Assembly (NCBI GenBank): GCA_013368375.1
Contig: JAACJP010000003.1
Coordinates: 1-64,000 of the forward strand
Direction of reading: 5' to 3'
Length of the DNA: 64,000 nt
Source of the DNA: Tricholomella constricta
Taxonomy: Eukaryota; Basidiomycota; Agaricomycetes; Agaricales; Lyophyllaceae
A program made the position numbers and the translations under genes. The stretch's first letter is position 1; each line of letters begins with the position of its first letter. This document shows positions 32,062-57,969 of this stretch, one piece after another. The notes beneath the pieces were generated by a model. The model saw only the letters and a list, made by a program, of their open reading frames with translations, was not told where the DNA came from and made no database searches.

Positions 32062-32776
32062 GCTACCGACAACTTCATGGACTCCGACATGGCGACATCA
32101 CGCGGGCTCCACCTTGAGGAGCTCAAACCCCCAATAAACCTTTGCCTATTTGATGGGAAACCCTCCGCATCAGGCAAAATCACACACTATACCACCAACG
32201 ACGTCAAATTCAGTGACGGCACCACTCAGAGGATAAGATTCCTCTTAACGAGACTCCACGAGACAGCGACGATAGTGCTGGGACTATCATGGCTGAAGGA
32301 GGTCAATCCCCGCATAAATTGGAAAGACCTCTGCATCACGCTACGATGGGGGTCAAACGGCAAAATCGAAGGATCACTACCGGACCTCCGAAGGAAAAAG
32401 GAAGTCGCTCCAACAACAACAGGCACAGGAGCTCAACGCTTACCCTCGCGGTCGGCTCGCTCCTTCACGATGGAAGTACAGTTGGAGGGATCTGCAACGC
32501 GTCTACGGGCACTTATTGATAGTGGGGCGGCGGGCAACTTCATAACAAAATCCTCGTGTACGAAGCCGGAACCTCTCGCCAACCCCATGACCCTACAACT
32601 GTTCGACGGAAACCCCAGCGGAGGCGGAGCCATTTCACACCATAGTCCCGAAATGATCAAACTCGAGAACGGACTAGAGTATAAGGCCGACCTCCTCATA
32701 ACACAGTTACATCCAGCCACACCATTAGTGCTCGGATTACCTTGGTTACGGGAAGCAAATCCGGACATTGACTGGC
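32062..32776 (+). pseudogene. Element B2 Pol, tandem protease segment
   Basis: Matches B1 from ATDNFMDS through VLGLPWLREANPDIDW with a few substitutions. It contains most of the first and all of the second protease domain (DSGAAGNF). The DSG of the first domain lies on the lost side of the B1 insertion. It ends at GACTGGC, the target sequence duplicated by the KDZ transposon. Confidence 0.9.
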
Positions 32777-33278
32777 CAGGTAGGGGCACTACAATGTAGC
32801 GTGTCCTACTGTCCAGCGGGGCCATACATGTAGCCGTATTGACGGCACCAGCGGGGCCGCTGGAGCGCCAGCGGGGCCACTACATGTAGCCGTGTTGCAC
32901 GGTACCAGCGGGGTCTCTACATGTAGTCATCTGGCACGGTTCCAGCGGCCCCGCTGGTGCTACAGCAGGGCTAATATGCAGCGGGGTAGGGGGCCAGCGG
33001 GGGATTGCCCACGTCTGCGGACCTCTGCGGGTTGCCTTTTTGGGGGCTAATACAGCGGGCCTATATGAGCCAGCGGGGGATTGCCCACGTCTGTGGACCT
33101 CCGCGGGTCGCCTTTCTGGGGGCTGATTGCCCACATCTGCGGACCTCTGCAGGTCTCCTTTGTGGGGGCTGGTATGGGGTATTGCCCACATCTGCGGACC
33201 TCCGCGGGTCGCCTTTTTGGGGGCTAATACAGCGGGCCTATACGTGCTGTCGGCAGCGGCAGAGGGTTTGCGGGGCAT
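32777..33278 (+). repeat. KDZ left terminal inverted repeat
   Basis: Reverse complement of 52292-52936. The outer ~250 bp carry three TACATGTAG-type palindromes (32824-32833, 32880-32889, 32918-32927) alternating with CCAGCGGGGCC / GGCCCCGCTGG blocks. The inner part has three to four degenerate copies of a unit reading GCGGACCTCCGCGGGT. It is shorter than the right end because that unit is expanded there. Confidence 0.85.
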
Positions 33279-33737
33279 TACCCACGTCCGCAGATAAATA
33301 TATGTCCGCGGGTTGTTGTCTGTGGCCTATAAGGGCTAAGGTAAAGGCTAGTGGGGCATTCCTCATTGCCCGTGGGTTGTGCACGCTCTGACAGCGGGGA
33401 ATTACGCCATGTCCGCAGCCCATGTCCGCAGCTCATTGTCTGTGGGGCATGTTACATGTAGCATGTCCAACAAGCCTTCTGGCAAGGGGCCCATATGCTG
33501 CTGTCTGAGGCAGTGGAGGCTTTCTTCACGCGTCCGCGGACCAATGCATAACGGGCTCATTTCTCACCACCAAGTGAGTTGTCTTGGGCAGCGGCCAATA
33601 CAAGCATACACTTTCTGCCAATACATGTCCGCGGTGTGGCCGCGGAGTCACACCGGTAAAATACAATCAAAACAAATGTGGTGTATATATTGAAAACAAG
33701 GCAAATGTTGTACAAATCTGTCACTGATCTTCTACCA
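33279..33737. other. KDZ left subterminal region
   Basis: No gene is seen. It contains scattered GTCCGCGG-type palindromes (for example near 33534, 33629 and 33645) and GTCTGTGG repeats. It probably includes the 3' untranslated end of gene G2. Confidence 0.55.
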
Positions 33738-35867
33738 CTAATCATCCAAAATGTTGGTCGGAATGTGCGCAAATGAGGCGGCGGTGTATCGTCCGCGGGG
33801 TACTTGGACTGCAAGCTGCTCATTGAACTCATCGTCTGAAAACTGAAGTAAGCCTTCAAGCATTTCAATTGGCGGTCTGGCATTACGACGAGCCCGCTGC
33901 CTGCGGCCAGTGCGCCGTGTAACCCTAAGTTGCCCCTCCTCACCTGAGTCCTCGGACAGTGAGAGGATGTCTGCCCCTTGCTCATCCGGGTCTTGCGCGC
34001 CCACCTCCGCGGGGCTGTCATCGTCTGAAAACTCGAGATCAGGGTCATGGAGATCTTCACTTTCCTCAACCCGATGGCCCGCGGAGCTGACTTCGTCGTC
34101 AGATGGCACATAATCTGGTGAGCCTGTGAGCTCAGACAGTAGAAATGATTAAGAATGCAATTTACCGCTCATCTCCGCGGACCTGGGCTCAGCATCGGAA
34201 GGAACATAGTCCGGGGTTGGATAACGCGGTGCTATTTGGGTTCAAACAGTCAGAAAATATACAGAGACTGTAGAGGATGCAGCTTACCCGTCATCGCCGC
34301 GGGGTCCACCTCATCATCGGAAGGAATATACTCTGGGGTTGGATAACGCGGTGCTATTTGGGTTCAAACAGTCAGAAAATATATAGAGACTGTAGAGGAT
34401 GCAGCTTACCCTTCATCTCCACGGGGTCCGCCTCATCATCGGAAGCAATATATTCCGGGGTTGGATAACGCGGTGCTATTTGGGTTCAAACAGTCAGAAA
34501 ATATACAGAGACTGTAGAGGATGCAGCTTACCCATCATCTCCGCAGGGTCCGCCTCATCATCGGAAGCAATATACTCCGGGGTTGGATAACGGGGTGCTA
34601 TTTCACAGTCAGGAAATATGAGGAAACATGCAAATCCAGTGCTTACCACCCGTTGCAATGATTGCCTCCAGATCTACAGGGCTGTCCGCGGCGGGGCCCG
34701 CGGCATCCGTGGCTAAGACATTGCTTTGGTAGTAACTCACATATTCCCCACCATCATCAGCTCGGAGCGGTGGCCTGCAAAAGTGGTCAGGATACTCAGA
34801 AGGCAGGAGTTCCCTGGGCCAGCGGACATCATCTCCGAGTGCATCATACCTGTCTGATGGACTGGGACTTGCACTGTGTGAGTCGGAGTCGACCCCCTTT
34901 GCCTTCCCTGATGGAAGATCCCCACCAAAGTCGGATCCCAGTGGCCCTGCAGTTGCCTGGGGGTCAAAGATTCTGAAGAGCTCCCGAGGAAGCATTTCTC
35001 CCCTCCCTTGCATATCCGCGGGTTTGATCTGATTGTCCGGGGAGATTTTCTCCGCGGCCCCCGCCTTTTGAGCTGTGATCTCCTCCTCCGCCTTTAGAGC
35101 CGAAGCCTCAAAGATGGTGTTGAAGGTTGCGGCACGGCGGGTGGACTCGAAGGCCTGTGCTTCTAAAATGGATGCAAAGCCTTGCACACGTGTCCGGCAC
35201 TGCTGCAGGGCTTGCGGACTTGCTTGTGTCCGCGGGACCCAAAGCGGAGGTGCTTCCTTCTGCTGATGACGATGGAGGGCAAGGCATTCCTTCAGGGTAG
35301 AATGACTGAGCGGCTCCCGGGGCTCATTATCTTTATGCTCTAGCCACCAGTCACATGCATATTTTGTGACGGGTGCCGCGGGGTGTTCAAGCGGAAGGGC
35401 GGCGTCCAGAGCAAGGATCAGGGCATCCGAGAGCACCAGTGGGCCGTGAGATGTCTGTCCATAGAAGTGGCATGCAAGAAGTCGGAGGAGGTTTGGAACC
35501 TCACAGGGGGCCATCATGCTGGTTGCAGCACCTACATGGGCCAATGCAAAATCCTGTCACAAAAGAAACTGAGCTGCAATCTGATATTGATTTCACCGCG
35601 GGTACTTACAAGCTCCGCGGACAAGTGCTTCTGCATGGAAGCTCGAATTTTTGGATCATTCACTGCCGCATATTTGACCAGAGAGATATGCAACCTTGAT
35701 TCGCAGTAAAAGAGGACCTCTTGCAAATTGCGGCTCTGCCAAACGTCGGGAGTAAGAAAGTTTCGGCATCTATGGACAAGAGCGCGGGAAACGCGGGGGA
35801 AGCCATTGTGTTTGCCTTGGAGAGTCGATAAGAGATCGGATAAGGGGGAGAAAAGAGTAGTTGCCAT
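33738..35867 (-). CDS. KDZ accessory gene G2 with tandemly duplicated exon-intron units
   Basis: Seven exons (35867-35610, 35553-34647, 34597-34532, 34475-34410, 34353-34288, 34231-34166, 34123-33738) sum exactly to 604 codons plus stop. Exon 1 reads MATTLFSPLSDLL; exon 2 has an Ala/Glu-rich helical stretch (ASALKAEEEITAQKAGAAE) and SDRYDALGDD. Exons 3 to 6 are each 66 nt, separated by near-identical 56-nt introns between repeats, and encode 22-residue acidic repeats of the form PRYPTPEYIxSDDExDPxEM. The last exon is very acidic and ends PTNILDD. I do not recognise a domain. It lies 200 bp downstream of the transposase gene in the same direction. A role as an acidic partner or chromatin adaptor is conceivable but not shown. 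Confidence 0.75.
34166..34597 (-). repeat. 122-bp tandem array of exon plus intron units
   Basis: Four 66-nt exons are separated by three 56-nt introns (34232-34287, 34354-34409, 34476-34531). Each intron starts GTAAGCTGCATCC and ends CCCAAATAG on the minus strand. Exons are phase-symmetric, so any number can be joined or skipped without frame loss. Confidence 0.85.
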
Positions 35868-36068
35868 AGTTACATAATTGACAGTTGCTTTCCCACCATC
35901 ATGTGATTTGACTGCACACGTGCATCCTGCAACATCCACGGACATCATTAGGCAAAGCACATCATGTTCAACGGGTCATGTCATCCGCGGACTTGGTTGT
36001 TGTCACCCCGCGGACACAATCATTGATCATTCCATTCCATTCTGCACGGCATTGATGATCATTCCATT

Positions 36069-39000
36069 CTATGCAAGCAATGCTACATATGATTGATTTA
36101 CTTCTTTAAATCGTTGCTCCGCCAACCAAGCAAGTTCCTTCCACATGGCTGTCTTCGCTGTCGGGCCCAGTTGTCCTGCAGCCGCGGCCTCCGCACCGCG
36201 CTCTATCCAGATCTGGGCCTGATGAAGGAAATATCGGGTGGTCCAAGTCATTTCATATTGAACAAGAGTGAATTCTTCTGTCCATCGATCCTTTTGTGCC
36301 CTTGCCCTCAAGAAATGAACACGTTGAACTATTGGTATCATGTCAGTAACAACTCCGCGGGGTTGACGCCAAAGAACATACACTCCAGCACAGCCTCCGG
36401 ACTATCTGTCGCTTGACCAGGTATTTGCCAAATCCAAGAAAGACTGGTACTTCGGATATCAGTTGAGCCCGGAGTGTTGGGATCCAGTATGGCGGTGCTC
36501 GATTTCACATGCTTCTTGTCAAGAATTTTGTACCTTTCCAGTGTGCCTTCATCCGCACCCAGACGGACAAGCTTTGCTCTGCATTTGTCATACACCCGAC
36601 AAAGGGTGGTGATTGTGTAATTGAGGGCGGTGATGTTACCCCGCGCGCGCGTCACCACACCCTTCCGCGGAGCAACTCGGATGACGTGTGAGTACAAAAA
36701 TGATTTCTTCGCAATTGCATTGCGGAGGTTCTGCAGATGGCGCTCTGCTTGAACCTTGCGCAATGCAAGCTCAAGTTTAGCCAGATGTGTCTCAGTTTCC
36801 CCAGCTGAGGATGGCAGGCAAATAGGTGTCTGCTCTGGTGGTAGGGGTCCGTCTGTTGCACTGACAGGACGGGAGCGTGTTTGTGCTGGCACCGCGGCGT
36901 CTCCGGAGGGTGGCAGGTCCGCGGGGTTCTCGTCTAGGTTGTCAAAGGCTTCGACGTTCACTGGCACATCCTCCGCGGAGGCCGAAGGAATGAAGTTTAT
37001 GCTCAGCTGTTTTGATGTGAACACATCAATTTGTGCACGTAGGCTTTGCCTTTCAGTTTCGACGGCCTTGCGGACATCTTCCCGCGGCTCGCGCACAAGT
37101 TGGCGGACTTTGTCTTGAAGGCCAATTCTAGATGGAAACTGTTCAGCTCCGGAAGACAAATAGAGATAAAATGTCTTACTGGCGCTCCTCAAGATCAAGG
37201 CCTGATTGTATCCACTCCTCTTCAGCTGTTGAGTGTTGCACAGGTCCATTGGAATCTCTCAGCTGCCCAATGTCCGCGGTGCGCGCTTTGAGGATGTCCA
37301 TAGCCTTGACATCATGAACCCTCCTCCGCTCGGCCTCCTGGATCTCCGCCTCCCAAGTTGTGGTTTGTGTGCGGCTTATGCCTGAAGCGACACCTTTGAA
37401 ATATTCTTGAGCAGTCTCCAACATCTCTGTCGCCTTTTCGTATGTCCGACACAATGTGACCGCTACTCCGCGGCCGCGGACATGGTCAGTTATCATAACG
37501 GAATAGATGAAATTTTACTAACGCATCTGCAGGAGTTTCTTCCAGTTAGAATCATTCATATGATCGTCCAGGATCTCCGCTCGGTGTGCCAATGTTGCGG
37601 TTCTGGTCATTGGTGACACAGTGTTCAACACGGCCCACAAACTCTCCAGAATTTCACCCGCAACTATAGCAGCGCCTGAAATGAATGAAGTTGCAAAGCG
37701 GTTAAAGCAATCATCTTTGTGACCGTGAACATGGAGTAGTCCGATGGCCTGAGCAATAGTCATTCCTGGGGGGAGTAGGTGGCCGATGCGCTTCAGAAAG
37801 TGTACCATGTATTGGCAGGCAATATCATAGATCAATAACACCTGGTCAATGTCTTCCACATTTGTTGTTTTAAGCGCCTGGAGGAATGCCCAGTCCACAT
37901 TCTTTTGCTGCTCACCCGCGTGGAGGTCCGACAGGCCGTTGGGGGCAAAACAACCATGCCGCGCACATGCAATGGCTACAATTCCTTTAACATCACAGGC
38001 TTTGGACACAAGCATTGCCTGCTCAACAGCGCGGAACTGATTCTCGCAAGGGGCTTTCTAAAATACAGGTTAGCACAGAACGCCGCGGGGTTGATGAACC
38101 CCGCGGACTACGCCGCGGAGGTGATCGGACTTGACTCACTGTCATCACATTGAATGCTTCCTTCAGGAACTCATTATAATTGGCCCGGTTAGCCATCATA
38201 CCTGACCCTTCCGACAGCCAAACATCCATGGCATTGTTCTTTTGGCGAACATGATCCGCTTTGAAATTGCCATCTGCGACAAAAGACCTCATGTATACTT
38301 TTCTGCATATAATGTTAATAACAATGATCAATCGTCACCAAATGCACTCACTTATTTGGGTCCGCGGACCACCCCGCGGGGAGATTGACACCTGGCTGTG
38401 GACATGTGGGACAAAAAATGGCGAGCTCCCCTGCAGTGGTCTGCATTGGATCTCTGTTATTGCTGCCAAATCCACCCCATTTGAGCTTCTTCAGCCATCT
38501 CCATGAACGCGAGAGCCGGCGGAGTTCGCGATAAAAGTTGTCGATGTCCGCGGAGCTCGTTGCTGCAGCGGTAGTCCGGCTGAGTTTGTGCCAATACTGA
38601 AATGCAGATGCCTTGCATTCCAGGTTCGCAAGACGATAATCATCGAGGACTGCAGTGGTGAAGAGCGTATTGTATCGTGTGAAGCTAGCAGGCACCAATC
38701 GTTTGTGCATCAGGTCTGTATTGACCTGGCTGACTCCGCGGCATGAACAGAAGACAAGTGGAATGTAGTGAATTCCATTGACATGTACAATGCGCACATA
38801 ACGATTGTTGAATGCGTCGTGCCGTGGCATTCTCGCCGGAAGGTCATCATCAACACCAGTGTCATCGTCATCTTCCTCGTCCACTTCGACTTCAACTGTG
38901 TCCAGATTAGACCCTGCCTCAGCAATCGGATGAAATTCTGGCTGTTGACCATAAGCACGGCTCAAGCGCGCCATATAATCATTGTCCGCTGCATCATAGG

Positions 39001-39786
39001 AAGTCTGATCAGTCATGTCCGCGGGGTCCGCGGGGTCGCTGTGTCGACCCGCGGGGTCGTTTCGCTGCTCTGTGCAGTGGTTCTTCTGTTCTTCATCGTC
39101 GTATTTCACCTGGTAATTCTCCAACTGCTCCTGTTGTAGCTGTAGTGTATCACAGAGTGCTTTCTCGGAGGAGTGGTGGGGGACCAGCAAGTAGGTACCA
39201 ACCTCCTGCAGCTGAGCTGCCTGGAAGTATTGACCTGTCCAGAACTCAATGCGATGGAGAGGATTGTCCCTGTGAGTTGTCCGCATGCAACCCCGGCAGA
39301 GTATCCTGTCACTGAGACAGTCTCGACAACGCCAACGTCCATAGTTGCCCTTGGGACAATCAGAACATTGAGTTTGATTCTCAATGTACTCTCTCCCAAG
39401 TAGTCCCTCCAACAGTTCTGGAACGTGGTTCACAAATTCTTGAAGGTAATCACCTTGTGTCTGTGCTGTGATTCAGTTACATGTACACACTACTTCAAAG
39501 AACAATTCACCTTGCCCCGTTTGGGGGCCACCTCATCAGTGGTGTCATTCAGGTCTGCTGAGTGAATGTCCGAATGCTCAAAGGGTTGGACATGGGTCTG
39601 CACACCCTGAGGGACAGATGTAGCAGGGTCCGGTGACCTCTTGCGCAAGGGGACACTCCTGGATTCCACGATGTCACCCCTCTGGGTATGCCTGACTGTT
39701 GTCTCGACATCCATGGCATATGAGCGAGAACTTTCCTTAAGGACTTCATCCTTCTTGCGACGTGTGCGCTTTACTGCACGCAACAT
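36069..39786 (-). CDS. KDZ transposase (Kyakuja-Dileera-Zisupton) with CxC2-like cysteine cluster
   Basis: Seven exons read from splice sites (39786-39511, 39460-38352, 38302-38140, 38057-37523, 37462-37180, 37127-36382, 36328-36069) sum to 1123 codons plus stop, all junctions in frame. Residues ~124-152 hold a cysteine cluster (CSDCPKGNYGRWRC, CRGCMRTTH) followed by HRIEFW, the CxC2-type zinc domain found in front of fungal KDZ transposases. The RNase H-like catalytic core has ADGNFKADH (D472), APCENQFRA, CARHGCFAPNGLSDL, YDIACQY (D594) and GEILESLW (E651/E654). The C-terminal helical region has RAQKDRWTEEFTLVQYEM. These match the three acidic residues and conserved motifs of the KDZ superfamily. 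No stop or shift was found, so it may be active. It would act in the nucleus on the element's ends. Confidence 0.92.
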
Positions 39787-40042
39787 GGTGGGTAAGGATG
39801 AGATCTGATTTGGTGGAAAAATCAGAACCTGTCTACTGATGTATCACTGATTACTCTCGGACATGTCCTCATGGTTGTGCAAAGGTCAGCTGCACTCATA
39901 ATCGGGGCCATTGATGTACCCGTGCCTCATATTACCCAAACTGGAAACTTCCTTGCCAAATGCGGGTACTGTGGGACAACTGTCAAGCGTGGAGTTCAAC
40001 ACTTTTAGACCCAAATAGGAAATTTTGTAACGGAGCTCCACC
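39787..40042. promoter_or_regulatory. Divergent promoter between KDZ transposase and gene G3
   Basis: 256 bp separate the transposase start (minus) and the G3 start (plus). The stretch is free of CCGCGG, in contrast to the flanking genes. No clear TATA box was found. Confidence 0.5.
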
Positions 40043-42295
40043 ATGTCCGAAAATATTTTCACACCGGAAACAGTCACACATGCCCCCGCGGCCCTGAAGA
40101 AGACAAGTAAGGGGCCCCGTTACCCGGCTGACGAGCGCGCCGTCCTCAACAAGTACCGAGAGGAGTATCGGTCAGAGTCGGACCAGAAAAAAAGGGCGGC
40201 CATTTTCAAGGACAAAGTCTTGGTTGATATTTATAACTTCTGGAAGGCAAAGGGAACAGAGCCCAAGACCGCAAAGAAGTCTGCGTCAGCTACCATGGTC
40301 CATCAGGCTAGAGTGTGTATCTCTGTGTCATCACACTGATCAGCATACAGAAACTGGCAGATTGGGTGAGGAACAACTGGAGGCCCTACCCAGCATATAA
40401 CCAGTCATCGGGTAATTTGAAAGTTACTGTGCGCCAGGTAGTCAATCGGACAATGCGCGGCTTGATTACCGAAGAGTTGAAAGAGATACTGGAGGAGGTC
40501 GATGAATCTCCCACCGCGGCCTTCCAGCAACACAACAAGGCTTTGGCACGGGTGATGAACAAACTCACTCCGCCACAACTCCAGGAGGCAGAGGCCACTG
40601 CCCGTGAGTGGAGCACCAAGGGCTTTCCTGCTGAGGAGCAGCGCAAGTGAGTGACTCCGCGGGGTCCGCGGACATCTCGGAGTTGATACCTTCTTATCTC
40701 AGGAATGCGGATAAGCGGGGCTTTCAACGAGTGGAGAATGAGGATGCCAACAGGTGGCGAGAGATGGGCATGCTGTCCCTTACCTTTGTGGTATGGAGAG
40801 GGCAAGATGGGCAACTGAGTGTCCGGTCGTGAGTTGTTCATCGACTCCGCGGGCTTGTGCTGATGTCCGCCGCGGAGCAGTCATGACAGCATTGCAGCAA
40901 ATGCAGGAGCAATCAGCAAAACTTTCATTGATACCTTTCCGCACATGGTAAAGGACTTCAAAAGAAAGCTTATGGACTATGTCCTTTCACTCCAAGAATC
41001 CATTGCACCAGACCCCCTGCATCAGACTGATACAGTAATTCAGCCACGTCCAGATCTACAGCTGGATCAACAAAATGATGGTTTTCCAATTCTACCGGAG
41101 TTGGTAGAAGGTGTGCAACAGAGCAAAGATGACCTTGAGCTTCTGGTCCGCGCATTCCTGAAACATCATTACAGTACGTGATAATTCTTTGATATCATAT
41201 CAGACCTATCCTAACTTCCTTACAGAACTAGCATCGGGACACCTCTACTCATCCCCTCCATTCACTTCCATCAAAGCGGACAATAGAATGTTCATCCCCG
41301 CGGAGTACGTTCCCACGGACATCCAAATTCAAGACCCACGGAACCTCCGACTACATGAACTCCGGGAGTTGCTCGACTTCTGGGGAGAGCGCCAGAAGAG
41401 GCTTGGACCCTCAGAGACCTTTCGCTGGTCCAGTTACTTGAACAAGAAAAAGGAGAGAACGGAGGCGGTCTACGGGGCGCGCAAGGACGAGGAAGCTTTG
41501 GCTGCCGCGGCAGCAGCAAAGAAAGCAAGGCGGAAGAGGGGCAAAAAAAAAGCACCAGCTCCGGACCCCTTAGAAAGCCTTATTCCAATGTCGGACCTGG
41601 AAGGCAGTGACGGCGAACACAGCAGTCCAGCACCAGATGAAAACCAACATCCGACACCCCTGAGATTCAATCCATTACCGGATAACGAACCCCGCGGACC
41701 ACCCGATGAACTCGCAGAGCACTATCAGAATCAATCACAAGATAATGACCCTCACGGACTACCCAACACACCCCGCGGAGCACCCATCAAACCCCGCGGA
41801 GCACCCAACGAATCCAACGAACCTGGAGAACAGACTGACGAATATGGTCCCCATGACCGTCTTGAACCAGACCCCATGACTAATCAAAGCCTGGTCAGAA
41901 TTGACGAAGCAACAATGCACCGCTTGAATGCCCGCGGACTTCCGACACAGGCACCCATCAATGGGCCTGGTGAAGGGCTGCCAGAGTACATGGTGCTGGC
42001 AACTGCAATGCAGCTCCTCAACGAGGTAACTCCGCCGCCCAACACTCCTACTCCCTCTCCGCCGAATACACCAACTCCGCCCACACCTCCGGTTACACGC
42101 AAGCGCAAGCAGGTTGAAGGACAGATGACTAAGCGAAAGAAATCAAAGCAGGATTTACTGCTTGCGGAGGCCGCGGACTTTGGTGTCAGTACCACCAGGG
42201 GTAGCCGCACACGCAATCAAACCATGACCCGAGCTGCAACATCCAAGTCCGCGGGGCCTAGCAACAGGTCTAAAAGAAGCACAAGGCGCCGCTAG
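40043..42295 (+). CDS. KDZ accessory gene G3 (681 residues, basic C terminus)
   Basis: Five exons, 40043-40312, 40351-40646, 40703-40828, 40890-41173 and 41226-42295, sum to 682 codons with all phases matching; the 38-nt first intron is short but has GTGTGT and TACAG ends. The N-terminal part reads KGPRYPADERAVLNKYREEY and KLADWVRNNWRPYPAYN, a helical region I associate with KDZ-linked mushroom proteins of unknown function. Then come TFIDTFPHMVKDFKRKLMDY, HLYSSPPFTSIK, and a charged Ala/Lys stretch (KKARRKRGKKK). The C terminus is Pro-rich with PRGAP repeats and two basic clusters (TRKRKQ, TKRKKSK) that could be nuclear signals. It is divergently transcribed from the transposase, which suggests co-regulation. 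Function unknown. Confidence 0.8.
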
Positions 42296-42674
42296 TTTAC
42301 TGTTTTCTCATCAGTTATAATTGTTGACAGCTCATTGGTAATTCATTGATCACAATGTTCAAAAAAATTGTTTTATTGTATATACTTTTCAATAATGTGG
42401 CAGTATATACACTACAAGTTGCCAGTGCTTTGCTATCATACATATTTGTTCAGTAAAGACAACAGATATTTGAAGGAAGTCCGCGGGGTGTTCGGAAAGT
42501 CCAAGCCACCTAGGCTGAATTGTGCTTTTTGGAAGGCCCTCCACCCTCATCCGCCGCCTTGCGTTTTGTGCCTCGCGAACCTTCCTCTGGAGCAGGTGAC
42601 CCCTCAGGACTGAGCTGCGGAGACGGAGTGGCAGGGCCCGCGGGGCCCGCGGATCCTTGTGGGGTGGGCGGAGT

Positions 42675-43171
42675 TGTTAGGGCGACCTCAGCGCAGAGCT
42701 TAGTCGTGCTGGCAGAGGGGAATCCAATGTTATATTATGTACGATTAGAGAGAACGTAAGTAGACCTACCTGGCAGAGGGGAATCCAATGAGAATAGAGT
42801 AAAGGATTCCCCCATGTCAGGAGGATGACTATATACGAGTAACTACTTGAGGGCCGGCTCTCTGGGGTGTATGGTACGTAAATGATAACGGATGGGCAGC
42901 GGCGCGTGTATGTACACGTTCCCGACGCTGTCCGATCCTCGTGGCTCAGGGTGCAGGCGCACGAGGTCGGGTGACCGACGTCGGGATGTCGAGAATCGGG
43001 ATCGGGCGCGCGCTGGAAGGGGAAGTAACGACAGGAAGTTATAAGTATGTACACCGATGCTTGGGGCGGAGCGTCGGGGTCGGGATCGCGATCATCTGAG
43101 GAGCGGTCGGTCACGTGCTCGTCCGAGGAATCGGATGGTCACGTGATCACCAAACAGGTGTTCCCCTAACA
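42675..43171 (-). repeat. Element C 3' LTR
   Basis: 497 bp, TGTTAG...CTAACA on both strands. It matches 48544-49040 except for one CpG transition (CG here, CA in the other copy, near 42705). Confidence 0.97.
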
Positions 43172-46100
43172 TCACCCCCCCTTTTGAATCGCAACGACTC
43201 GGTGCGGGGTGACGGTGGCGAAGATGGCGGGGGATAGAGTGAAGATGCCACGAATGTGGCGTGGGGCGTCGGGGTTGTCGCGGTGAAATTTGCGTACCAG
43301 ATCGGGGGCGGCGACATTTTCGCGAGGTTCCCAAGAAGCTTCTTCGTAACCATAGCCCTTCCACAGGACCTTGTACTGTAGTTTTTTGCGGAAGGTTCGG
43401 CTATCGAGGATCTTTTCAACTTCATAATGGGGTTCGTCTCGATTATGTCGGGGGGCGGAGGGGGATCGGATCGACGACCTTCGATCGGATCAGCAATGGC
43501 GGGGATGAGCTTCACGACGTGGAAGACTGGGTGGATGCGCTTCATGGACTGAGGCAGCAGGAGGCGGTATGCCAGCGGGCCGACTCGCCTTTGCACGACG
43601 AAAGGGCCAAGGTAGCGATGCGACAACTTCTTAGACGGTCGGGTCGTAGAAATGTCGGTCGCGTCCAAGTATACCTTGTCGCCAGGCTGGTAGTCGGGCG
43701 TTGGGGCGTGCCGCTGGTTGTAATACCGCTCCATGTCGTCTTTGGCCTTTGAAAGCGCTGCCTTGGCTTCCTCCTGTGCTTCCTTCATGCGCTCCACGAA
43801 CTCGTCTGCTGACTCGTTCTTGGAAGCGCCCCGACGCGGCTCAAAGCCCATGCGCGGATGCCGACCAGTGTCAAGCAGGAAGGGGGTCTGCTGCGTCGCC
43901 GAATGTACATGGTTGTTGTAACTGAATTCGGCGTCGGGCAGGAGGTCCTCCCAATCGTTCTGGCGCTCATTGCAGAAGACTCGCAAGAACTGTTCCAGTT
44001 CCTGGTTGACACGCTCTGTCTGTCCGTCGGTCTGTGGGTGGTACGCCGTCGAGGCCGACAGCTTGATACCCAGGAGTCTGTACAGTTCGCGCGTGAACTC
44101 GGCGACGAACTGTGGACCTCGATCGGAGACGAATGCGTCGGGGAGACCGTGCAGCTTCCAGACGTGGCGACGGTAGAGGTTCGCAGCTCCCAGGGCCGAA
44201 CAAGTCGTGTGCGACGCGATGAAGTGCGCGCGCTTTCCAACTGAATCCACGACATTCATGATCGCGTCGTGGCCGTTGGACTCTGGAAGTTCGGTGATGA
44301 AGTCGACCGATACGACATTCCATCGGCCTTCGGGGATGGGAAGCGGCTGCAGCTGTCCGACGGGGAGTTGGCGGCGAGGTTTCGTGCGCAGACACATGTC
44401 ACAGGTGCTGGTGTACGAACCGATGAAGCGCGACATCTGGGGCCACCAGTAGTTGCGCGACACCAGTTCGAGCGTCTTCCAGCGACCGGGGTGACCGGCG
44501 ACCTTGGAGTCGTGGTGCTGCTCCACAATGCGTCGGCGAAGGTCTGGGACGTTCGGGACATAGATCCGTCCACGGAACGTGAGCAGACCGCCTTCCTCTC
44601 CCCACTCGCCAAAGCGAAGGGAGCGGCCGGCGATCTTGGATGCTTTGACCAGTTGCGCCGCTTTCGCGACCGCATCCTCCTGAGCCCCATCGCGATTGCC
44701 CTTGCGGATCGCTTTCAGCACATCATCCTCCTCTCCGACCAGTGCAAGGCCTTCAGTTGCACGAACGGCGAAGAATTCTGGTTTGAGCAGCACGATGTTG
44801 GCGTTGTCGGCGCTTCCGTCGCCATGGTCGGGGCGACGCGATAACGCGTCGGGTTTGCCCATGCTACGGCCAGGACGGTGGTGGAGGGCGAAGTCGAAGT
44901 TGGCGAGGTAAAGCGACCATCGGGCTTGACGCCGATTGAGTTTCTTCGCGGTGAGGAAGTACTCGAGGTTCTTGTGGTCGGTCCAGATCTCCACCTTGTG
45001 CTTTGCGCCTTCTACGAAGTGTCGCCATTCCTCCAGAGACCGGATGATCGCCAGCATCTCTTTGTCATGGATCTCGTAGTTCCGCTCGACGGCGTTCAAG
45101 CTCTTCGAGTAGAACGCGACCGGGTGCCACTTGCCATCGGATGGCGACTCTTGCGACAGGACTGCGCCCGTTGCGAAGTCGGACGAGTCGGCTTCGATGC
45201 GGTACGGTCGATCGTCGTTGGGGAACATGAGGACTGGCCCCGATGTGATTGCAGACTTCAGAAGGGCAAAGGCCGACTGCTCCGACTCTCCCCATCGCCA
45301 GGCGACGTCCTTGCCTGTCAGATCGAACAGGGGTCGGGCATGGTGCGAGAAGTCCTGGATGAACCGTCGGTAGAAATTGGTGAAGCCTAGGAACGCTTGC
45401 ACCTCCTTCTTGTTCTTCGGCGCCGGCCATTCCAACACTCCAGCGACTTTAACCGGATCCATTTCCGCTTGCCCTTGCGAGATGATCAGCCCGAGATACT
45501 CGATCTTAGTCTGCTCAAATTCGCATTTCTCGGGCTTTAAGAACAGCTGATGTTCGCGGAGTCGGTCCAGTACCAGTCGCGTGACCCGATGGTGTTCCTC
45601 TAGCGTCTTTGTATAAATCAAGATGTCATCGAGGTACACGCAAACAACACCTTCAGCGATCAGATCGCGGAAGATATCATTCATCATGGTCTGAAATGTG
45701 GCGGGGCTGTTCGTGAGGCCGAAGAACATGACGAGCGGCTCGAAGAGGCCGCGATTCGTCCGAAACGCTGCCTTCCACTCGTCGCCTTCCTTGATCCGCA
45801 CGTTGTTGTACCCCCATCGGACGTCCAACTTGGTGAAGTACCGCGCGCCGCGAAGGTTATTCACCAGTTCGCTAATGAGGGGCAGCGGGTATCGGTTCTT
45901 CACCGTGAGCGCATTGAGCGTCCGATAGTCCTGAACCAGTCGGAGCGACCCGTCCTTCTTCTTGATGAAGAAGACCGGCGACGCCATGGGCGACTTGGAC
46001 GGTCGGATGCGACCTGTCTCGAGGTTCTCCTTGAGGAACGCGTCGAGTTCGACCTGTTCTGCCGGTGAGAGCGGGTAGACCTTCGTGCCCGTCGGCGACG

Positions 46101-47204
46101 CGCCCGGCTCCAGTTCGATGGCATGGTCCCATTGCTTGCGCTCTGGAAGCTCATCGAATGCGACTTTGGAGAAGACATCTTCAAAGTCGTGGAGGTGGGT
46201 CGGTACTGCGTCGCGGAAAGTTCTGGGCACGGAGTTAGCAGCGTGCGCTTCCGCAAGTCGCTGCGATGTCGTTTGGCTGGCCCGAATATGCTCGGCGGTC
46301 GGAGTCGGATGGATCGCGGTCGCGAAGATGCGATCGCCACTCAGGAAGGTTTCCACCAGGAAGTCGTCAGACTCTGGGTCAGGTTCCTCCAGGATCGGGG
46401 TGTAGGGGAGGAACTCCTCCTCATCAGAGTCGTCCTCAACATACGGGTTGGTCGGGGCTCGCAGGTCGGGCTCAGTCATCGGTATACCGTCGGCTCGACA
46501 GGCGCGGATCGCTGCGCGCACTTTGGTGCGTGCGCGCCGATCGGCTTTGACCTCGTCCTTGCAGGTGCCGCACTGCGTCGGACAGCGACTCATCTTCACC
46601 TCCTTGGTCTCCCAGTCGATCTCGGGGTTATGGTTTTTAAGCCAGTTGAACCCGAGGATCATGTCTTGCTTGCCTAACTGGGTGACCCCGAAGACGGCTC
46701 GTTCGGTATGACCGTTGTATCGCAAGACAGCTTCTACGATGCAAGAGACCGAACCGCCTTCGTTGAGAGTGCCGTCCACATTGTAAACCGGGGATGGCCG
46801 ACTAAGCACCTTGGTTGTGAGCTTGTGTTTCTCGACGAAAGCGACATTGAGAAAACTGCCGGTCGCTCCGCTGTCCACTAGGGCAGTGACGGCATGCGAC
46901 TCCTGGGTGTCGGTGGTCTCCAGTTCGACGTTGAGCCACAGGGATCTGGGGCAGGGGGAGGCAGCGGCGATGAAGCGACTAGGGAGTCGCTTTTCCCAGC
47001 GGGGTAGGCCACGACGCGACGGGGCGATCGGCTTTGCAACTGCGATCGGTGTCGTCGGGTCGGAGGGGTTTTGTACGTCTTTGTCGGTCGGTTCGCTCGT
47101 CGGAATAGCAGCAATATTAGGTGTATTGGCGTATTCTACGGATAAAGGAGCGAACCGATTACGACTAGACAACGGGGGCGTACGTTCCACCCGTTGTGTA
47201 ATTA
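43147..47204 (-). pseudogene. pol: Element C Pol; chromodomain out of frame
   Basis: Pol lies in the -1 frame relative to Gag and has no ATG at its start. Counting from 47190: protease VDSGATGSFLN (D near 106) and ILGFNWLKNHNP; RT FFIKKKDGSLRLVQDYRTLN, VMFFGLTNSPATFQ, CVYLDDILIYT; RNase H EADSSDFATGAVL, NYEIHDKEMLAI, WTDHKNLEYF; integrase HHDSKVAGHPG...CDMCLR, SVDFITELPE, VSDRGPQFVAEF and QTDGQTERVNQELEQFLR (D, D, E); then a GPF-type end (HRYLGPFVV). The chromodomain ([30 protein letters not shown]) is encoded at about 43438-43270 in the next frame and stops at 43172; a single missing base near 43440 separates it from Pol. The shifted frame runs into the LTR. Confidence 0.9.
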
Positions 47205-48416
47205 AAAACCCTCCTCGGCGTCGGAGGCGGTCGCGTCGGCCGACGATGGAGTCGGGTCGGCGGGGACTGCGTCCTTGCGAGCTAGACGTTCCATGATAAG
47301 CGCCTCCAGCTCGTCATCGAGCATGTGGCGCACGTCCCAGCGCAAAGGGCAGTCACGAGAGTAGTGACCCTTTTTCTTGCACCGAAAACAGTGGTCGTCG
47401 GCAGGCGCGACTCGATCGCGCATCCGATCTACGTCCATTGGGATGCCCTGGGGGATCGGCCTGGGGGCTGGTGCAGCAGGAGCGCGGGGGGCGGGGGGAG
47501 CGGGAGCGGGAGCGGGAGCGGGGGCAGTAGCGAACGCCCATCGTGCAGCTGCGGTGGTGGGCGGGCGGCTGTCGGGCGCCTTTGTCGGGACCATCCGACG
47601 GTGGAAGTCGTCCTCCGACCTCATGATGAAGTCTTGAGAACGAGCGATCCTCAGCCACTCCTCAATCTTCTCATCGTGCGGGCGACCCGTGGTGATGCTT
47701 CCGAGTCGCCTCGAGAGCTTCGGGTCCATTCCCCGACGGAATTTGAGGACCAGGTGACGCCCATCTGGGTAGCCCGCCTTGACCCACAGGGATCGGAACG
47801 AGTCGATGTACTCGTCGATCGATCGACCGTTCTGGAAGTACGCCGTCGACTCCAGGATGAGCGCGGCATCGGCGACCTCGTCGAAGAGGAAGAACTCGCC
47901 ACGGAAGGTGTCTTCGAAGTCCTTCCAGGCGGGAAAGACGTCCTTGGCGGTTCCGAACTGGAACACCCGACTGACGAAGTCGGCGGCTCGCCCGTGCTGC
48001 ATGTACGACAGCACCCATACTATTCGGGCGTGGTCATCGGCGAAACTTCCCCCGCACAAGGAGAAGTAGAGCTTGCAGGCGTTCAAGAACGCGCGACCGC
48101 CCGATCGGGCGCCGTCGTAAATGGGAGGGGGCGACGGTCGGAGGTGGTGCGATCCCGATCGCGGAGAGCCTGGCAGCGGGGTGGTCGTCTCAGGCGGCGG
48201 GGGGGTCGTGTCTGCTTCGGGAGCAGCGGGGGTGGGATTGGGGGGTGTCCCCGACATGAATTTTTCGAAAAGAGCGGAGAGGCGGTCCATAGAGGCCGAG
48301 TTGGAGGTATTGGAGGCAGAGAGAGCCGAAATTGTGGCTTCCATATTCGCCAACCGCTCCTCCGTCGTGAGGAAGGGAGAGAACGGTCGCTGCGACATGT
48401 CACCAAATTCGGACAT
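47202..48416 (-). CDS. gag: Element C Gag (404 residues)
   Basis: ATG at 48416 gives 404 residues. Pro-rich N-terminal segment, then a capsid domain (FSLCGGSFADDHARIVWVLS, WKDFEDTFRGEF, SIDEYIDSFRSLWVKAGY, LVLKFRRGMDP) of the retrotransposon gag type, an Ala/Pro repeat (APAPAPAPAPP) and a CX2CX4HX4C zinc knuckle (CFRCKKKGHYSRDC). The stop lies in the frameshift heptamer context. It builds the virus-like particle and binds RNA through the knuckle. No defect is seen. Confidence 0.93.
   Translation of the reverse strand: MSEFGDMSQRPFSPFLTTEERLANMEATISALSASNTSNSASMDRLSALFEKFMSGTPPNPTPAAPEADTTPPPPETTTPLPGSPRSGSHHLRPSPPPIYDGARSGGRAFLNACKLYFSLCGGSFADDHARIVWVLSYMQHGRAADFVSRVFQFGTAKDVFPAWKDFEDTFRGEFFLFDEVADAALILESTAYFQNGRSIDEYIDSFRSLWVKAGYPDGRHLVLKFRRGMDPKLSRRLGSITTGRPHDEKIEEWLRIARSQDFIMRSEDDFHRRMVPTKAPDSRPPTTAAARWAFATAPAPAPAPAPPAPRAPAAPAPRPIPQGIPMDVDRMRDRVAPADDHCFRCKKKGHYSRDCPLRWDVRHMLDDELEALIMERLARKDAVPADPTPSSADATASDAEEGF
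47205..47211 (-). promoter_or_regulatory. -1 ribosomal frameshift site G_GGT_TTT (element C gag-pol)
   Basis: Gag ends GAG GGT TTT TAA, giving heptamer G_GGT_TTT directly before the stop. A 7-nt spacer is followed by an 8-bp perfect stem: ACAACGGG (47197-47190) with CCCGTTGT (47176-47169), loop 13 nt. The -1 frame enters Pol without a stop. GGGUUUU is a known viral slippery sequence. Confidence 0.8.
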
Positions 48417-48529
48417 CTCGAAACGGGACTGGACGGGCGATCGGGGCGAGCGCGCGTTGGACGGTCGCGTGTAGCAGACGCGTGTTTCGGCGCGGAAGCG
48501 GATCGGTCGGCTTCGTCGGGTTTCTAGAG

Positions 48530-48541
48530 TTACTCTATTCT
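48530..48541 (-). other. Element C self-complementary primer-binding site
   Basis: Two nt inside the 5' LTR the element strand reads AGAATAGAGTAA, which is the exact complement of TTACTCTATTCT in its own LTR (48671-48660). A TATATAG box ends 26 nt, and starts 33 nt, before that segment, placing the predicted RNA 5' end there. No TGG start for tRNA priming is present. Confidence 0.7.
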
Positions 48542-48543
48542 GC

Positions 48544-49040
48544 TGTTAGGGCGACCTCAGCGCAGAGCTTAGTCATGCTGGCAGAGGGGAATCCAATGTT
48601 ATATTATGTACGATTAGAGAGAACGTAAGTAGACCTACCTGGCAGAGGGGAATCCAATGAGAATAGAGTAAAGGATTCCCCCATGTCAGGAGGATGACTA
48701 TATACGAGTAACTACTTGAGGGCCGGCTCTCTGGGGTGTATGGTACGTAAATGATAACGGATGGGCAGCGGCGCGTGTATGTACACGTTCCCGACGCTGT
48801 CCGATCCTCGTGGCTCAGGGTGCAGGCGCACGAGGTCGGGTGACCGACGTCGGGATGTCGAGAATCGGGATCGGGCGCGCGCTGGAAGGGGAAGTAACGA
48901 CAGGAAGTTATAAGTATGTACACCGATGCTTGGGGCGGAGCGTCGGGGTCGGGATCGCGATCATCTGAGGAGCGGTCGGTCACGTGCTCGTCCGAGGAAT
49001 CGGATGGTCACGTGATCACCAAACAGGTGTTCCCCTAACA
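48544..49040 (-). repeat. Element C 5' LTR
   Basis: 497 bp, with TATATAG at 48704-48698 and predicted RNA start near 48671, dividing it into U3 of ~370 and R-U5 of ~127 nt. Confidence 0.97.
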
Positions 49041-51134
49041 GGAGTCACCTGGAGGGTGGGTCCAGCTGGGGTCGACGCAGGCACAGTCGGGCTCCAGGCC
49101 GGTGGTGAAGGGGTGGCGAGAGCGGGGGTGGGCACAGGGGTGGTGGGCACAGGGGTGGCTGGAGGTGGAGGTGGAGGGGTGGCTGGAGGTGGAGGGGTGG
49201 TGGGCAAGGGGGGCAGAGGGGTGGAGGGAGGCGGAGTTCCCTCAGCCGCTGACTGGGGTGAAGACGGAGGCAAAGGCGGATCTTGAGCGGACTCTGCGGG
49301 CCTGCGCGGAGGAGGCGGAGTTGCTTGCGGAGGTGCTTGCAAATCCATGTTCTCTATGTTGAGGGCGGCCATGTCCGCAAACAGCTCCGCGGCCAGCTCC
49401 GTGGGAAGAGGTGCTTGCGCCTCTAGCATCCGCACACGCTTCTGCAGGCCCTGCACCTCGACTCCCTGACGTTGCGCCTCACCCAATACCTCCCTCCCTG
49501 CCAACTCCAGCTCCCGCTGTGCAAGTACAAGCTCTGCAGCCCTAAGGTTGATGAGCTCGCACTGCATTGACCGCCTCTTGTCCCGCTTCAGCACCAATTG
49601 CACGCTGACCTCCAGGTCTGACATCCGCTCCCGCAAAGTGGTATTTTCTGCGGTCAAGGTCGCAAGCCTGGTCAGGATCGCCGCGGGGTCAAAGTCCGCG
49701 GGGAGCGCGGCAGCGGACGGGAAGTGGGTGGCTACAATGGTCTTCTTTAGCAAAGTGATGAAGAGAAGAAAAAAGACTTACAAGGCCCCGCGGGGTTGAA
49801 GTCCGCGGAGGGCGCGGCAGCGGACCTGGGGTGAGTGGCTACAAGTATATTTATTAGCAAAGTGATAAAAAAATGGATGGGAACTTACAGGGACCCGCGA
49901 TGTTCTCCTTTGCCCGCTTGACCTTCGTTGGCTTTGGCCCCTTCCTCGGAATGCCTGGTGAGAAAACACAACTCTGCTTTGCAAACTTGCATGGAAAGCA
50001 GGCTGTTGCCTTCCCACCCTGTATCCTGCACGCGAGATTCCTCATTGTGCATCGTACACAGGCGGGGTCATAGTTTCCGTGGTCGACCGCGGACATCGCT
50101 CGGAATTCGTTGTCGCTGTCGTCCCGGTCCAAGTCCTGGAACGACTGCACCACCTTGCCCTTTCCCTTGTCTGCGGCGGAAGGCAAGGGGTCCGCCGCGC
50201 GGATACGGTGCTGTTCTGTTGTGTTGGGAAAGATCAGTGTCAGACTAGGTAATGCAAAAATGAAAAACTCACCGGGTTGAACGCCCGCGGCCTTGACCCC
50301 CGCGGACCCATCCACTTCCCTCTGCTTTCCCTTCTCCTTTCTTCTCCTCTCTGCCTTCTCCGCCCTCTCCTTCTCCGCCTTCAACGCCACGGCCCTCGCT
50401 TCCGCTTCCACAGCCCTCACCTCTGCGGCCCTTGCCTCCGCCTCTCTCTCTTTGGCAGCCCTCCTCCGGGCGGCCTTCTCTGCTCTCGCTCTCTCCATCT
50501 CCTCCCTCTCCCTCTTCTCCTTTTCCTCCCTCTCTATTTCTTCCTCTAACCTCTGCTCCTCAGCCCATTTGGCCTTCCTCTTCTCCCGCCTTGCCTCCGC
50601 GGCCTTCATCTCCTCTGCCATTTCCGCGGCCTTTCTCCTTGCCAGTTCCATCGCCCGTTTCCTTGCCTCCTCGGCCTCCGCGACCCTTGCTGCCCACTCT
50701 GTGGCGGCCCTTGACGACTCCGCCTCCGCGGCACTCGCTGCCGGCTCCGCGGCACCCGCTGCTGACCCCGCGGCACCTGCTGCCGGCCCCGCGGACCCCG
50801 TTGTCTGCTGTTGGCCCTGGTGAGCACGCACAATGTCCAGAAGTTTACCCATTAGCTCCTTCGTGTTTTCCCCATGCGAGATGTCCTGGATTAGCCGGAT
50901 TGTGGCAGCAAGGAGGGAGGCGTGCCTGGCCCGCATAACCTCCGGGGTGGTGCTGGCCTTGACCCGCGGCCATAATTTTTTCTTATTTTCTAATGGTCAG
51001 TGATTGGTTAAGATAGAGAAAAAAAAATGTACCGCTGTTTTTTTGTACAGCGCAGTCAGCGCCGGGACATCGCCGTTTTCGACGGCCTTGACAATGTCGT
51101 TGTTGATCGCGTTCAGAGCCGTGATGTCGGACAT

Positions 51135-51339
51135 TTTGATGCGCGGAGGGCGGTGTTGCGGACTTAGATTTGGGAGTGGTGGCGGGCAGATATGGGAGGG
51201 CAGAAGAGTTCCGCAGGAGTTGAAAATTCTCAACATGGTCACGTGCAACATCCAATTATATCTCTCTTACTAATTGTTCTCCGTTGTTCCAAAAGATTCT
51301 TATCACGTGCTCTGATTGAAGATCAACCAGACCATAAAG
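51135..51339. promoter_or_regulatory. Divergent promoter between KDZ genes G4 and G5
   Basis: 205 bp separate the two start codons. Like the 39787-40042 spacer it lacks CCGCGG. No TATA box was recognised. Confidence 0.45.
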
Positions 51340-51948
51340 ATGGCCTTCTTCAACAGACACAGACCCATACAAATGAGCGCCATCAACCCATCGGAAAGTA
51401 ACTCCGCGGACACCGCGGACATGCGACCTACTCCGCTCCGCGGATATGTTGTGATCAATTCCAATGGCCGGGAGTACCTTGTGCCACAACATCTGGCTGC
51501 CATAACGGAGCAGAAGCTCCTAACTGAAGCTTTGAAGGAAAAAGAGCTGAAGAAGGCCAAGGCTGATCCTGGAGTAAGTGATGGAATTGCTGCTCATTCA
51601 TTGAAGGGATAGCTAACATAAATTGAGTAGCCAGTGAAGCACAAAGACGGAGGGTTTCTGACTCTAGCCTCTGGTTCTGTTATAATCCCCGCGGACCCCG
51701 TAAGTCTTTTTATGCACACCTTGTTTACAAAACTAACAGTCATTTATTAGCCAATGACACAGCGAGAGCTCCTTGGTCTCCACGCTGAAATCAAAGCTTT
51801 CCAGCAACTTCACAACGTATCCTATGCTTCCGCGGCTCGTCAGCTGTATCTGGCAGAGGTCGCCAAACTTAACAGCCTGCAAGTTGCTCTCGGTGCCTTC
51901 CGTACCATCCGCAATGAAATTGATGGGCCTCAAATGGGTGATACGTAG
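51340..51948 (+). CDS. KDZ accessory gene G5 (166 residues)
   Basis: Three exons, 51340-51573, 51631-51699 and 51751-51948, with GTAAGT donors, CTAAC branch sites and GAGTAG/ATTAG acceptors; all junctions in phase 0. The protein starts MAFFNRHRPIQMSAINP, contains GYVVINSNGREYLVPQHL and a charged helix (EKELKKAKADPG), a short middle exon (GGFLTLASGSVIIP) and a C-terminal helix (ELLGLHAEIKAFQQLHNVS, LAEVAKLNSLQVALGAF). No family is recognised. Exon 1 alone has three CCGCGG copies. Its divergent pairing with G4 suggests co-expression with it. Confidence 0.75.
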
Positions 51949-52291
51949 AGGACATAGTTTGGTACACTTCTGCACTTCTGTCATTAAGTACTTGTGCAAC
52001 AATGTGTGATTACATGCAATTAATTACATTACTGTGATTAGTAATCCCCATAGACGGAGGCCCGCGGACATGTATTGATCCGCGGATGTTGGTATGGCCT
52101 GAGGCCCGCTGCGGTGCTGCGGGTGCCTCCAGAGACAACGACCCGCGGACATGTATGTCACCGCGGACGTGCCTGCCCAGGCCCGCTGCAGTGCTGGGAG
52201 TGCACCACAAACTACGACATGTATTGAACTGCGGACGTCGGTAATGGCCCGGCCAGGCCCGCTGCGGTGCCGGGGGTGCCTCTAGAGAATG
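51949..52291. other. KDZ right subterminal region with degenerate repeats
   Basis: No gene is seen. Three degenerate units of roughly 80-100 bp each contain a GACATGTAT element, one or two CCGCGG-like sites and an AGGCCCGCTGCGGTGC-like block. Confidence 0.6.
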
Positions 52292-52936
52292 ACCCGCAAA
52301 CCCTCACCCTGCCGCCGCTGACAGCACCATATAGGCCCGCTGTATTAGCCCCCAAAAAGGCGACCCGCGGAGGTCCGCAGATGTGGGCAATACCAGCCCC
52401 CAACAACGAGACCCGCGGAGGTCCGCAGATCTGGGCATCCCCCATACCAGCCCCCAAAAACAAGACCCGCGGAGGTCCGCAGATCTGGGCATCCCCCATA
52501 CCAGCCCCCAAAAACAAGACCTGCGGAGGTCCGCAGATCTGGGCATCCCCCATACCAGCCCCCAACAACGAGACCCGCGGAGGTCCGCAGATCTGGGCAT
52601 CCCCCATACCAGCCCCCAAAGACAAGACCCGCGGAGGTCCGCAGATCTGGGCATCTCCCATACCAGCCCCCAAAAACAAGACCCGCGGAGGTCCGCAGAC
52701 GTGGGCAATCCCCCGCTGGCCCCCTACCCCGCTGCATATTAGCCCTGCTGTAGCACCAGCGGGGCCGCTGGAACCGTGCCAGACGACTACATGTAGAGAC
52801 CCCGCTGGTACCGTGCAACACGGCTACATGTAGTGGCCCCGCTGGCGCTCCAGCGGCCCCGCTGGTGCCGTCAATACGGCTACATGTATGGCCCCGCTGG
52901 ACAGTAGGACACGCTACATTGTAGTGCCTGTATGTG
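52292..52936 (-). repeat. KDZ right terminal inverted repeat
   Basis: Inverted copy of 32777-33278, about 140 bp longer because of an internal tandem array. The tip ends CATTGTAGTGCC-TGTATGTG before the GACTGGC duplication. Confidence 0.85.
52393..52716. repeat. 54-bp tandem array, six units, in the KDZ right end
   Basis: Units begin CCAGCCCCCAA at 52393, 52447, 52501, 52555, 52609 and 52663, exactly 54 bp apart. Five of six contain CCCGCGGAGG; one has CTGCGG. Each has a GCAGATCTGGGC or similar block. A related unit precedes the array. Confidence 0.92.
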
Positions 52937-56523: not shown

Positions 56524-56728
56524 AAACGACTCGACGAACACTCATGCACATCACGAAAAATTATGCAAATCCATTTCAAGAAGACAAACTGTGTTATATG
56601 TATTCGTACCTCCTGGACAACAACATTACGAAAGAGAAACGATACCAAGAAAAAATAAACGAACTTCAAGTGTAAATATTTGGCAAAAAGGAAATGAAGG
56701 AAGTCCAAGACACCGCGAAAACGACCGT

Positions 56729-57726: not shown

Positions 57727-57927
57727 TGGAGATAGCCAAGTTGACGCTTCGTCGGGACTTGGTTGAGAATGTAGACGGCGTGCAAAAGAGATGATTATTC
57801 CTTCTACCAACTGGCCCAAAGTGGCCGCGGCCCCTATGACTAAGCTACTAAAGCTGTTGCTAAACAAGGCCAAACAATGCGTTCTCCTTACTTCGCCTGC
57901 CTTGGAGCGTCGCTCCGCGACACTCCA
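57727..57927 (-). repeat. Element E 3' LTR
   Basis: 201 bp, TGGAGATAGCC...GACACTCCA, identical to 63648-63848 as far as read. Confidence 0.95.
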
Positions 57928-57969
57928 TGTGCCCCCCCTCTCTCGTGGCGACGTCCGCGTCGCCCTTCT

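Follow-up and report, generated by a model that had tools for sequence, protein, structure and literature searches.

The window analysed here, positions 1 to 64,000 of contig JAACJP010000003.1 (forward strand, assembly GCA_013368375.1) of the mushroom Tricholomella constricta, contains a KDZ transposon in which the palindrome CCGCGG occurs 88 times. The element carries both the KDZ transposase domain and the CxC2 cysteine cluster by which the KDZ superfamily is recognized, and it encodes, besides its transposase, the genes B, C and D, of which gene C specifies a putative zinc-cluster protein; a Ty3/gypsy element is nested within it (Table 1). The limits of the transposon had been proposed in an earlier reading made from the letters alone (the sequence-only reading), and the CA..TG ends and the GACTGGC duplication on both sides agree with them. 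The CA..TG ends and the duplication of 7 base pairs (bp) are hallmarks of Kyakuja elements. As the element has inverted repeats of about 240 bp (36 of the 40 outermost bp pair up), and the Kyakuja elements of Laccaria are described without them in the part of the source available (PMC12730594), it is assigned to KDZ and not to Kyakuja proper. Its family is called fam1 below, and four other KDZ families of the genome fam2 to fam5.

Excess of CCGCGG in the transposon

The 88 sites lie in positions 32777-42674 and 49041-52936, at about one per 157 bp, exactly the number that the sequence-only reading had estimated by eye. The nested element (42675-49040) has none, and the remaining 43.85 kb of the window have 14 (10 in 1-32776 and 4 in 52937-64000), in keeping with the scarcity claimed for both. 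The second commonest 6-bp palindrome in the element, ACATGT, occurs 15 times. In the genome of 44.09 Mb CCGCGG is found 12158 times (about one per 3.6 kb), on a par with its backward-read word GGCGCC (12474), and is therefore not common generally. The element contains 757 CpGs, 176 of which fall within the 88 words; outside the words CpG is low, at 0.62 of expectation versus 1.12 in the window flanks.

Masking of tandem repeats leaves 71 sites, where 100 dinucleotide shuffles yield 2.6 ± 1.5 (maximum 6), so that chance indeed accounts for only a few and tandem repeats are ruled out as the cause. Codon usage is ruled out by synonymous shuffling of 13 coding stretches (2507 codons), which hold 49 sites versus 8.3 ± 2.6 in 1000 shuffles (maximum 17); the excess over codon-preserving controls is thus established, and of the 98 places at which the protein sequence allows the word, 49 are filled. 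Regional composition was likewise rejected, as none of 40 CGG patterns exceeds a z score of 2.0 in the nested element and the window flanks. Coding stretches, with 50 sites in 7544 bp, are about as densely occupied as the rest of the element, with 38 sites in 6250 bp, and the outermost 250-325 bp of the element are free of CCGCGG. Gaps between sites have a mean of 149 and a standard deviation of 157, resembling random spacing, which speaks against nucleosome-like phasing. The two divergent promoters (39787-40042 and 51135-51339) do lack the word, as had been claimed, but the element-wide density predicts fewer than two sites in each; the absence is a weak point, and promoter avoidance was not retained, the expected number being too small to count.

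Table 1. Coordinates of the KDZ transposon and associated features in the window.
Feature	Position	Strand	Remarks
KDZ transposon	32777..52936		CA..TG ends; 13.8 kb excluding nested element
Left target-site duplication GACTGGC	32770..32776		inside a Ty3/gypsy-like open reading frame
Right target-site duplication GACTGGC	52937..52943		
Left terminal inverted repeat	32777..33025	+	zero CCGCGG
Right terminal inverted repeat	52688..52936	-	
CCGCGG sites, left part of KDZ element	33101..42652		
CCGCGG sites, right part of KDZ element	49387..52688		
Transposase gene	33738..39784	-	several exons; limits approximate
KDZ transposase domain exon	37518..38057	-	PF18758, 4.2e-36; zero CCGCGG
CxC2 exon	38348..39472	-	PF18803, 2.4e-18
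Gene B	40043..42295	+	related genes in fam3 and fam4; first exon also in fam2
Gene C	42512..51135	-	putative zinc-cluster protein, then possible coiled coil; limits approximate (read from sequence)
Zn2Cys6-like cluster CX2CX6CX9CX2CX6C (gene C)	49971..50084	-	
Gene D, small	51373..51948	+	relatives in fam3 (tblastn) and fam2 (by eye); end approximate
Nested Ty3/gypsy element	42675..49040	-	zero CCGCGG

Protein relatives of the transposase exon number 164; the best-scoring of the 120 listed aligns with 99% of the query at 49% identity, and Leucocoprinus, Lyophyllum and Termitomyces are among the listed matches. A search of viral_contigs with the KDZ exon gave zero matches. For gene B, no family above the cut-off was found in a Pfam search. 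Gene C of the window copy is interrupted within its proline-rich last part by the gypsy insertion, whose long terminal repeats are 99.8% identical across 497 bp and are flanked by a duplicated GGAGT (42670-42674 and 49041-49045); judged from its sequence, the nested element is young. Within the transposon, CTACATGT and ACATGTAG words are confined to the vicinity of the two ends (32826-33454 and 52787-52880, the one at 33454 lying beyond the left inverted repeat), and they are candidate sites for end recognition by the transposase.

Site turnover and the words of sister families

At least 134 stretches in the genome match the CxC2 exon. Eleven of 19 fam1 copies have this exon complete and open and are less than 99% identical; in pairwise comparisons among them, which are not independent of one another, CCGCGG is unchanged in 1614 of 1840 cases (88%); other two-CpG hexamers reach 66% and CpG-free hexamers 72%. 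A set of seven copies, hand-picked as one per subgroup after the site counts had been seen, gives 870 of 912 (95%), and a per-site test in this set finds 15 of 22 CCGCGG sites invariant, versus 23 of 77 two-CpG hexamers (p 0.002) and 52% of CpG-free hexamers (p 0.14). When compared with copy L001, five copies retain nearly all sites (23/23 in four, 20/21 in the fifth), and L003 retains 9/9, part of its stretch not being comparable. Two classes of fam1 copies appear despite an open transposase exon, one with near-full retention (L005, L013, L015, L016 and L019) and one at the background rate (L006, L011, L014 and L018). In L011, L014, L018 and L021, which were chosen for their low site number and are therefore excluded as evidence, 56 of 80 sites are kept, again background-like.

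Around gene C, six copy groups of 53-85% nucleotide identity hold 17-34 CCGCGG each in the compared stretches, yet pairs of groups at 53-62% identity have only 4-14 in common. It is thus established that the number of sites is maintained and their place is not. The stretches L003, L034 and L036 each contain ACCGAC 14 times, probably as part of a repeat-bearing insertion.

The sister families carry words of their own. In fam3 (C11), CCGCGG is found 82 times versus 2.4 in the control, with different flanks: the base that follows is C in 63% and A in 9%, versus A in 47% and C in 18% in fam1 (chi-square 120 with both strands of the palindrome counted, about half that per site). In fam4 (C12) and fam2 (C59), CCGCGG is no commoner than background, and CCGG and paired CGG take its place; fam4 is rich in CGG-N3-CGG (76 versus 7.8) and CCGG (161 versus 66), and fam2 in CCGG (141 versus 59.5), on which two more fam2 transposase stretches concur (L026, 51 versus 20.9; L030, 50 versus 19.5). 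The density of the word climbs and then drops at both ends of fam2 and fam4, and climbs at the left end of fam3. Exons are included: fam3 exons hold 31 CCGCGG versus 3.7 in 500 synonymous shuffles (maximum 11), and fam4 exons 85 CCGG versus 57 (maximum 74) and 45 CGG-N3-CGG versus 20 (maximum 31) in synonymous shuffles. The KDZ domain exon, with no CCGCGG in fam1 and one in fam3, carries 6 CCGG in fam4 and 8 in fam2, and is therefore not avoided in every family. A further fam3 stretch, L069, nearly duplicates the first (99.8% identity) and therefore brings no independent evidence. On the right side of fam3, tandem repeats (L064:7000-7993) contain two GCCGCGGC per unit. The 7-bp duplication of fam4 is AACTATC; the same search for a 7-bp duplication with CA..TG ends found none for fam2 and fam3. 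In a tree of the transposases, fam1 and fam3 each form a group and fam2 groups with fam4.

We interpret the CCGCGG words as tags under selection in the transposon. The sequence-only reading had proposed as much, and the synonymous shuffles, the maintained number with turnover of place, the on average above-background conservation and the words of the sister families support it.

A putative zinc-cluster gene accompanies the words

Gene C is present in all four lineages fam1 to fam4 with six cysteines spaced CX2CX6CX8-10CX2CX6C. In an alignment of nine sequences the six cysteines and one lysine are invariant, and all nine fit the Zn2Cys6 consensus spacing, CX2CX6CX5-12CX2CX6-8C. The Pfam family Zn_clus is matched by eight of the nine domains (best 4.8e-5). 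A search of the PDB returned five sequences at E up to 10, all of them zinc clusters, namely GAL4, LAC9 and the ethanol regulon factor, which we take to be AlcR. The halves of the cluster align with LAC9 in the usual order and with GAL4 in swapped order, and the whole suggests that the sequence at 49971-50084 (minus strand) is a permuted Zn2Cys6 domain. Matches of coiled-coil type follow the cluster, below the cut-off (DUF948, 5.8e-4 in fam3; bZIP_1, 0.53 in fam1). Structure prediction of the zinc domain without an alignment was poor (predicted local distance difference test, 57.6), and no relative of the zinc protein was matched among 7990 candidates scored elsewhere, with either a single sequence or the alignment (A2) as query.

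Zn2Cys6 proteins typically read pairs of CGG in inverted, direct or everted arrangement and have a coiled-coil dimerization helix downstream, according to the accessible part of a published account (PMC5559640). The words have such a layout: those of fam1 and fam3 are everted pairs without a spacer, and that of fam4 is a direct pair with a 3-base spacer.

The presence and absence of the gene match those of the words. Counting as linked any gene on the same strand within 14 kb of a transposase in the whole genome (omitting fam1 fragments with fewer than about 345 amino acids matched, and including fragments of the other families), the zinc gene accompanies 33 of 38 transposases of the four lineages (20/22 in fam1, 8/11 in fam2/4, 5/5 in fam3) and none of the seven of fam5. 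A TET gene is linked to all seven of fam5 and to one of the 38 (one in fam1, none in fam2/4 or fam3). The fam5 elements carry a TET/JBP gene (PF12851, 6.5e-7, below the cut-off); in the one fam5 copy that was read, the six-cysteine pattern was not found and none of 40 CGG patterns rises above z 0.6. One fam1 copy (G000:C51:134063-134356) has a TET/JBP-like stretch 2.2 kb from its zinc gene; this stretch is probably a neighbour, its estimated position being slightly beyond the end of the element. The observed/expected ratio of CpG outside the words is 0.57-0.74 in zinc-gene elements and 0.89 in the TET-bearing element. The TET/JBP accessory gene of Kyakuja elements is thought to counter methylation, as stated in section 4.2 of the source (PMC12730594).

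A putative reader of the words and its parallels

We consider that the 88 CCGCGG sites are probably bound by the transposon's own gene C protein, which would coat the element and protect it against silencing. That a zinc-cluster protein encoded by the transposon reads the tags is a proposal that goes beyond the sequence-only reading, and we infer it as the best-supported identity of the reader. CCGCGG consists of two back-to-back CGG half-sites without a spacer, a layout known for Zn2Cys6 dimers, and the protein is predicted to bind it along the whole element. Each zinc-gene KDZ lineage would write its own word through exons and introns, the word marking the family's own copies and sparing the remaining genome, and binding would counter silencing based on methylation. 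We infer further that anti-silencing is the most plausible purpose, since sister elements carry TET/JBP instead and VANC proteins act in this way with a dispersed motif. A bolder version, for which we would put the chances at slightly under even, holds that every family has recoded the whole of its body, coding exons too, in a code private to the family; the reader would be the family's own zinc-cluster protein with its halves swapped, code and reader would change together, and the two would replace the TET/JBP demethylase by which sister elements counter silencing.

Several observations weigh against binding by the gene C protein and an anti-silencing role. Conservation of sites between copies is uneven, indeed bimodal: four open-frame copies retain 17/23, 14/19, 16/22 and 13/21 sites relative to L001, which is background-like. 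The zinc domain of the window scores 17.7 bits where the Zn_clus cut-off is 21, the PDB matches are weak (E 0.6-9), and against GAL4 the first half of the cluster pairs with the second half of GAL4 and the reverse. In fam2 exons the excess over synonymous shuffles is small (CCGG 46 versus 33, maximum 44; CGG-N3-CGG 15 versus 7.8, maximum 17). The families fam2 to fam5 are represented by a single copy apiece, covered largely or in full; the right end of fam3 was not reached and the ends of fam5 were not found; fam5 is a distant KDZ family (about 35% identity) and not a clean knock-out; and all comparisons of families and words lie within one genome. Words and zinc proteins both track the transposase lineages, and because word and reader follow the transposase tree, shared descent is inseparable from functional pairing across the four lineages.

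The zinc-cluster protein might instead read the sites as dispersed enhancers, or as replication or pairing elements, through which the transposon is expressed more strongly or reaches more copies, with silencing uninvolved. We regard this as unlikely, though not to be dismissed: Zn2Cys6 proteins are usually regulators of transcription, but the sites span exons and introns of the whole element and are missing from its two divergent promoters (in itself a weak argument), unlike those of promoter-centred activators, and in sister elements TET/JBP takes the place of the protein. Binding by the transposase (CxC2/KDZ), for assembly of a transposition complex or for cis preference, appears improbable. 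Some transposases are known to have many subterminal sites, and transposase and word do track the same lineages; yet the site-free outer 250-325 bp are where the CTACATGT and ACATGTAG words concentrate instead, fam5 has a KDZ/CxC2 transposase and no word (one copy read), and the words follow the grammar of CGG pairs.

A host protein that reads the sites, for instance to silence or methylate the element, might be suspected from the depletion of CpG outside the words of zinc-gene elements (0.57-0.74, versus 1.12 in the window flanks), which points to methylation in the past. If the tag served to attack the element, however, it should vanish, and here its number is held and its places regained; the tag differs among families of one genome, and five lineages retain nearly all sites, as selection in active copies would give. 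We judge a host reader very improbable. Least credible of all, by a narrow measure, is a compositional or mutational by-product, be it of bound words shielded against CpG decay, of codon usage or of spreading tandem repeats. The losses of CCGCGG are mainly CpG transitions, and in four copies that have decayed CCGCGG persists better than other two-CpG hexamers (17/33 versus 17/83 kept; CpG-free hexamers, 68%), a pattern that could stem from protection of the sites against mutation as well as from selection that acted before the copies decayed, and to that extent also counts against selection as the sole explanation. Shielding preserves words but cannot create them in the numbers by which the masked element exceeds its shuffles; nor does it account for the excess over synonymous shuffles, and related groups have their sites at differing places.

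In a literature search, no paper brought together CCGCGG, transposon and basidiomycete, and KDZ, transposon and Zn2Cys6 were combined only in a Cryptococcus clinical survey, as far as its available part goes. Among the matching papers listed, titles and abstract openings mention no zinc-cluster gene in KDZ elements, and the paper on TET/JBP Kyakuja (PMC12730594) uses none of the terms zn2, zinc cluster, binuclear, subterminal and accessory. With four lineages that differ in word and zinc protein, this genome would offer a natural set in which to relate the sequence of a zinc cluster to its DNA word, and would allow it to be tested directly whether transposons distinguish self from host DNA to evade silencing.

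Short self-marking words that run through coding sequence are familiar from the DNA uptake sequences of Neisseria and Haemophilus, which occur at about one per kilobase, serve bacterial DNA uptake and are not linked to a transposon. The zinc-cluster halves of yeast Pdr1 and Pdr3 stand in ordinary order. Their element, TCCGCGGA, resembles the fam1 word in its everted CCG-CGG and its T/A flanks, but the PDR5 promoter has four such elements in the part of the source available, and the transposon has its sites along its whole length (PMC5539612). Also comparable are the TET/JBP Kyakuja of mushrooms, which share the KDZ transposase, the 7-bp duplication, the CA..TG ends and a putative anti-silencing accessory gene; there, as far as the available sections tell, the gene is a dioxygenase speculated to work without target specificity (PMC12730594), and here it is a putative zinc-cluster gene. 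The one TET-bearing element read here showed no dispersed motif, unlike the zinc-gene elements.

A further close parallel is that of the VANDAL transposons of Arabidopsis, Mutator-like elements whose VANC proteins combine anti-silencing with a dispersed motif (PMC5735166, in the part available). Common to both would be an element-encoded protein specific for a short family-wide motif, with related proteins serving different families, the reader being putative in our case (PMC5735166). VANC is a protein of another kind, from a plant Mutator-like element, and here a zinc cluster would act for a KDZ element. According to the same portion of that source, the sites of VANC21 are located outside coding sequence and its targets are often tandem repeats, whereas CCGCGG is similarly dense in exons (PMC5735166). 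If our interpretation is true, the KDZ elements would show for a second time, independently and in fungi, that a transposon can recognize itself by a specific sequence, here with sites that, unlike those of VANC21, are written through exons.

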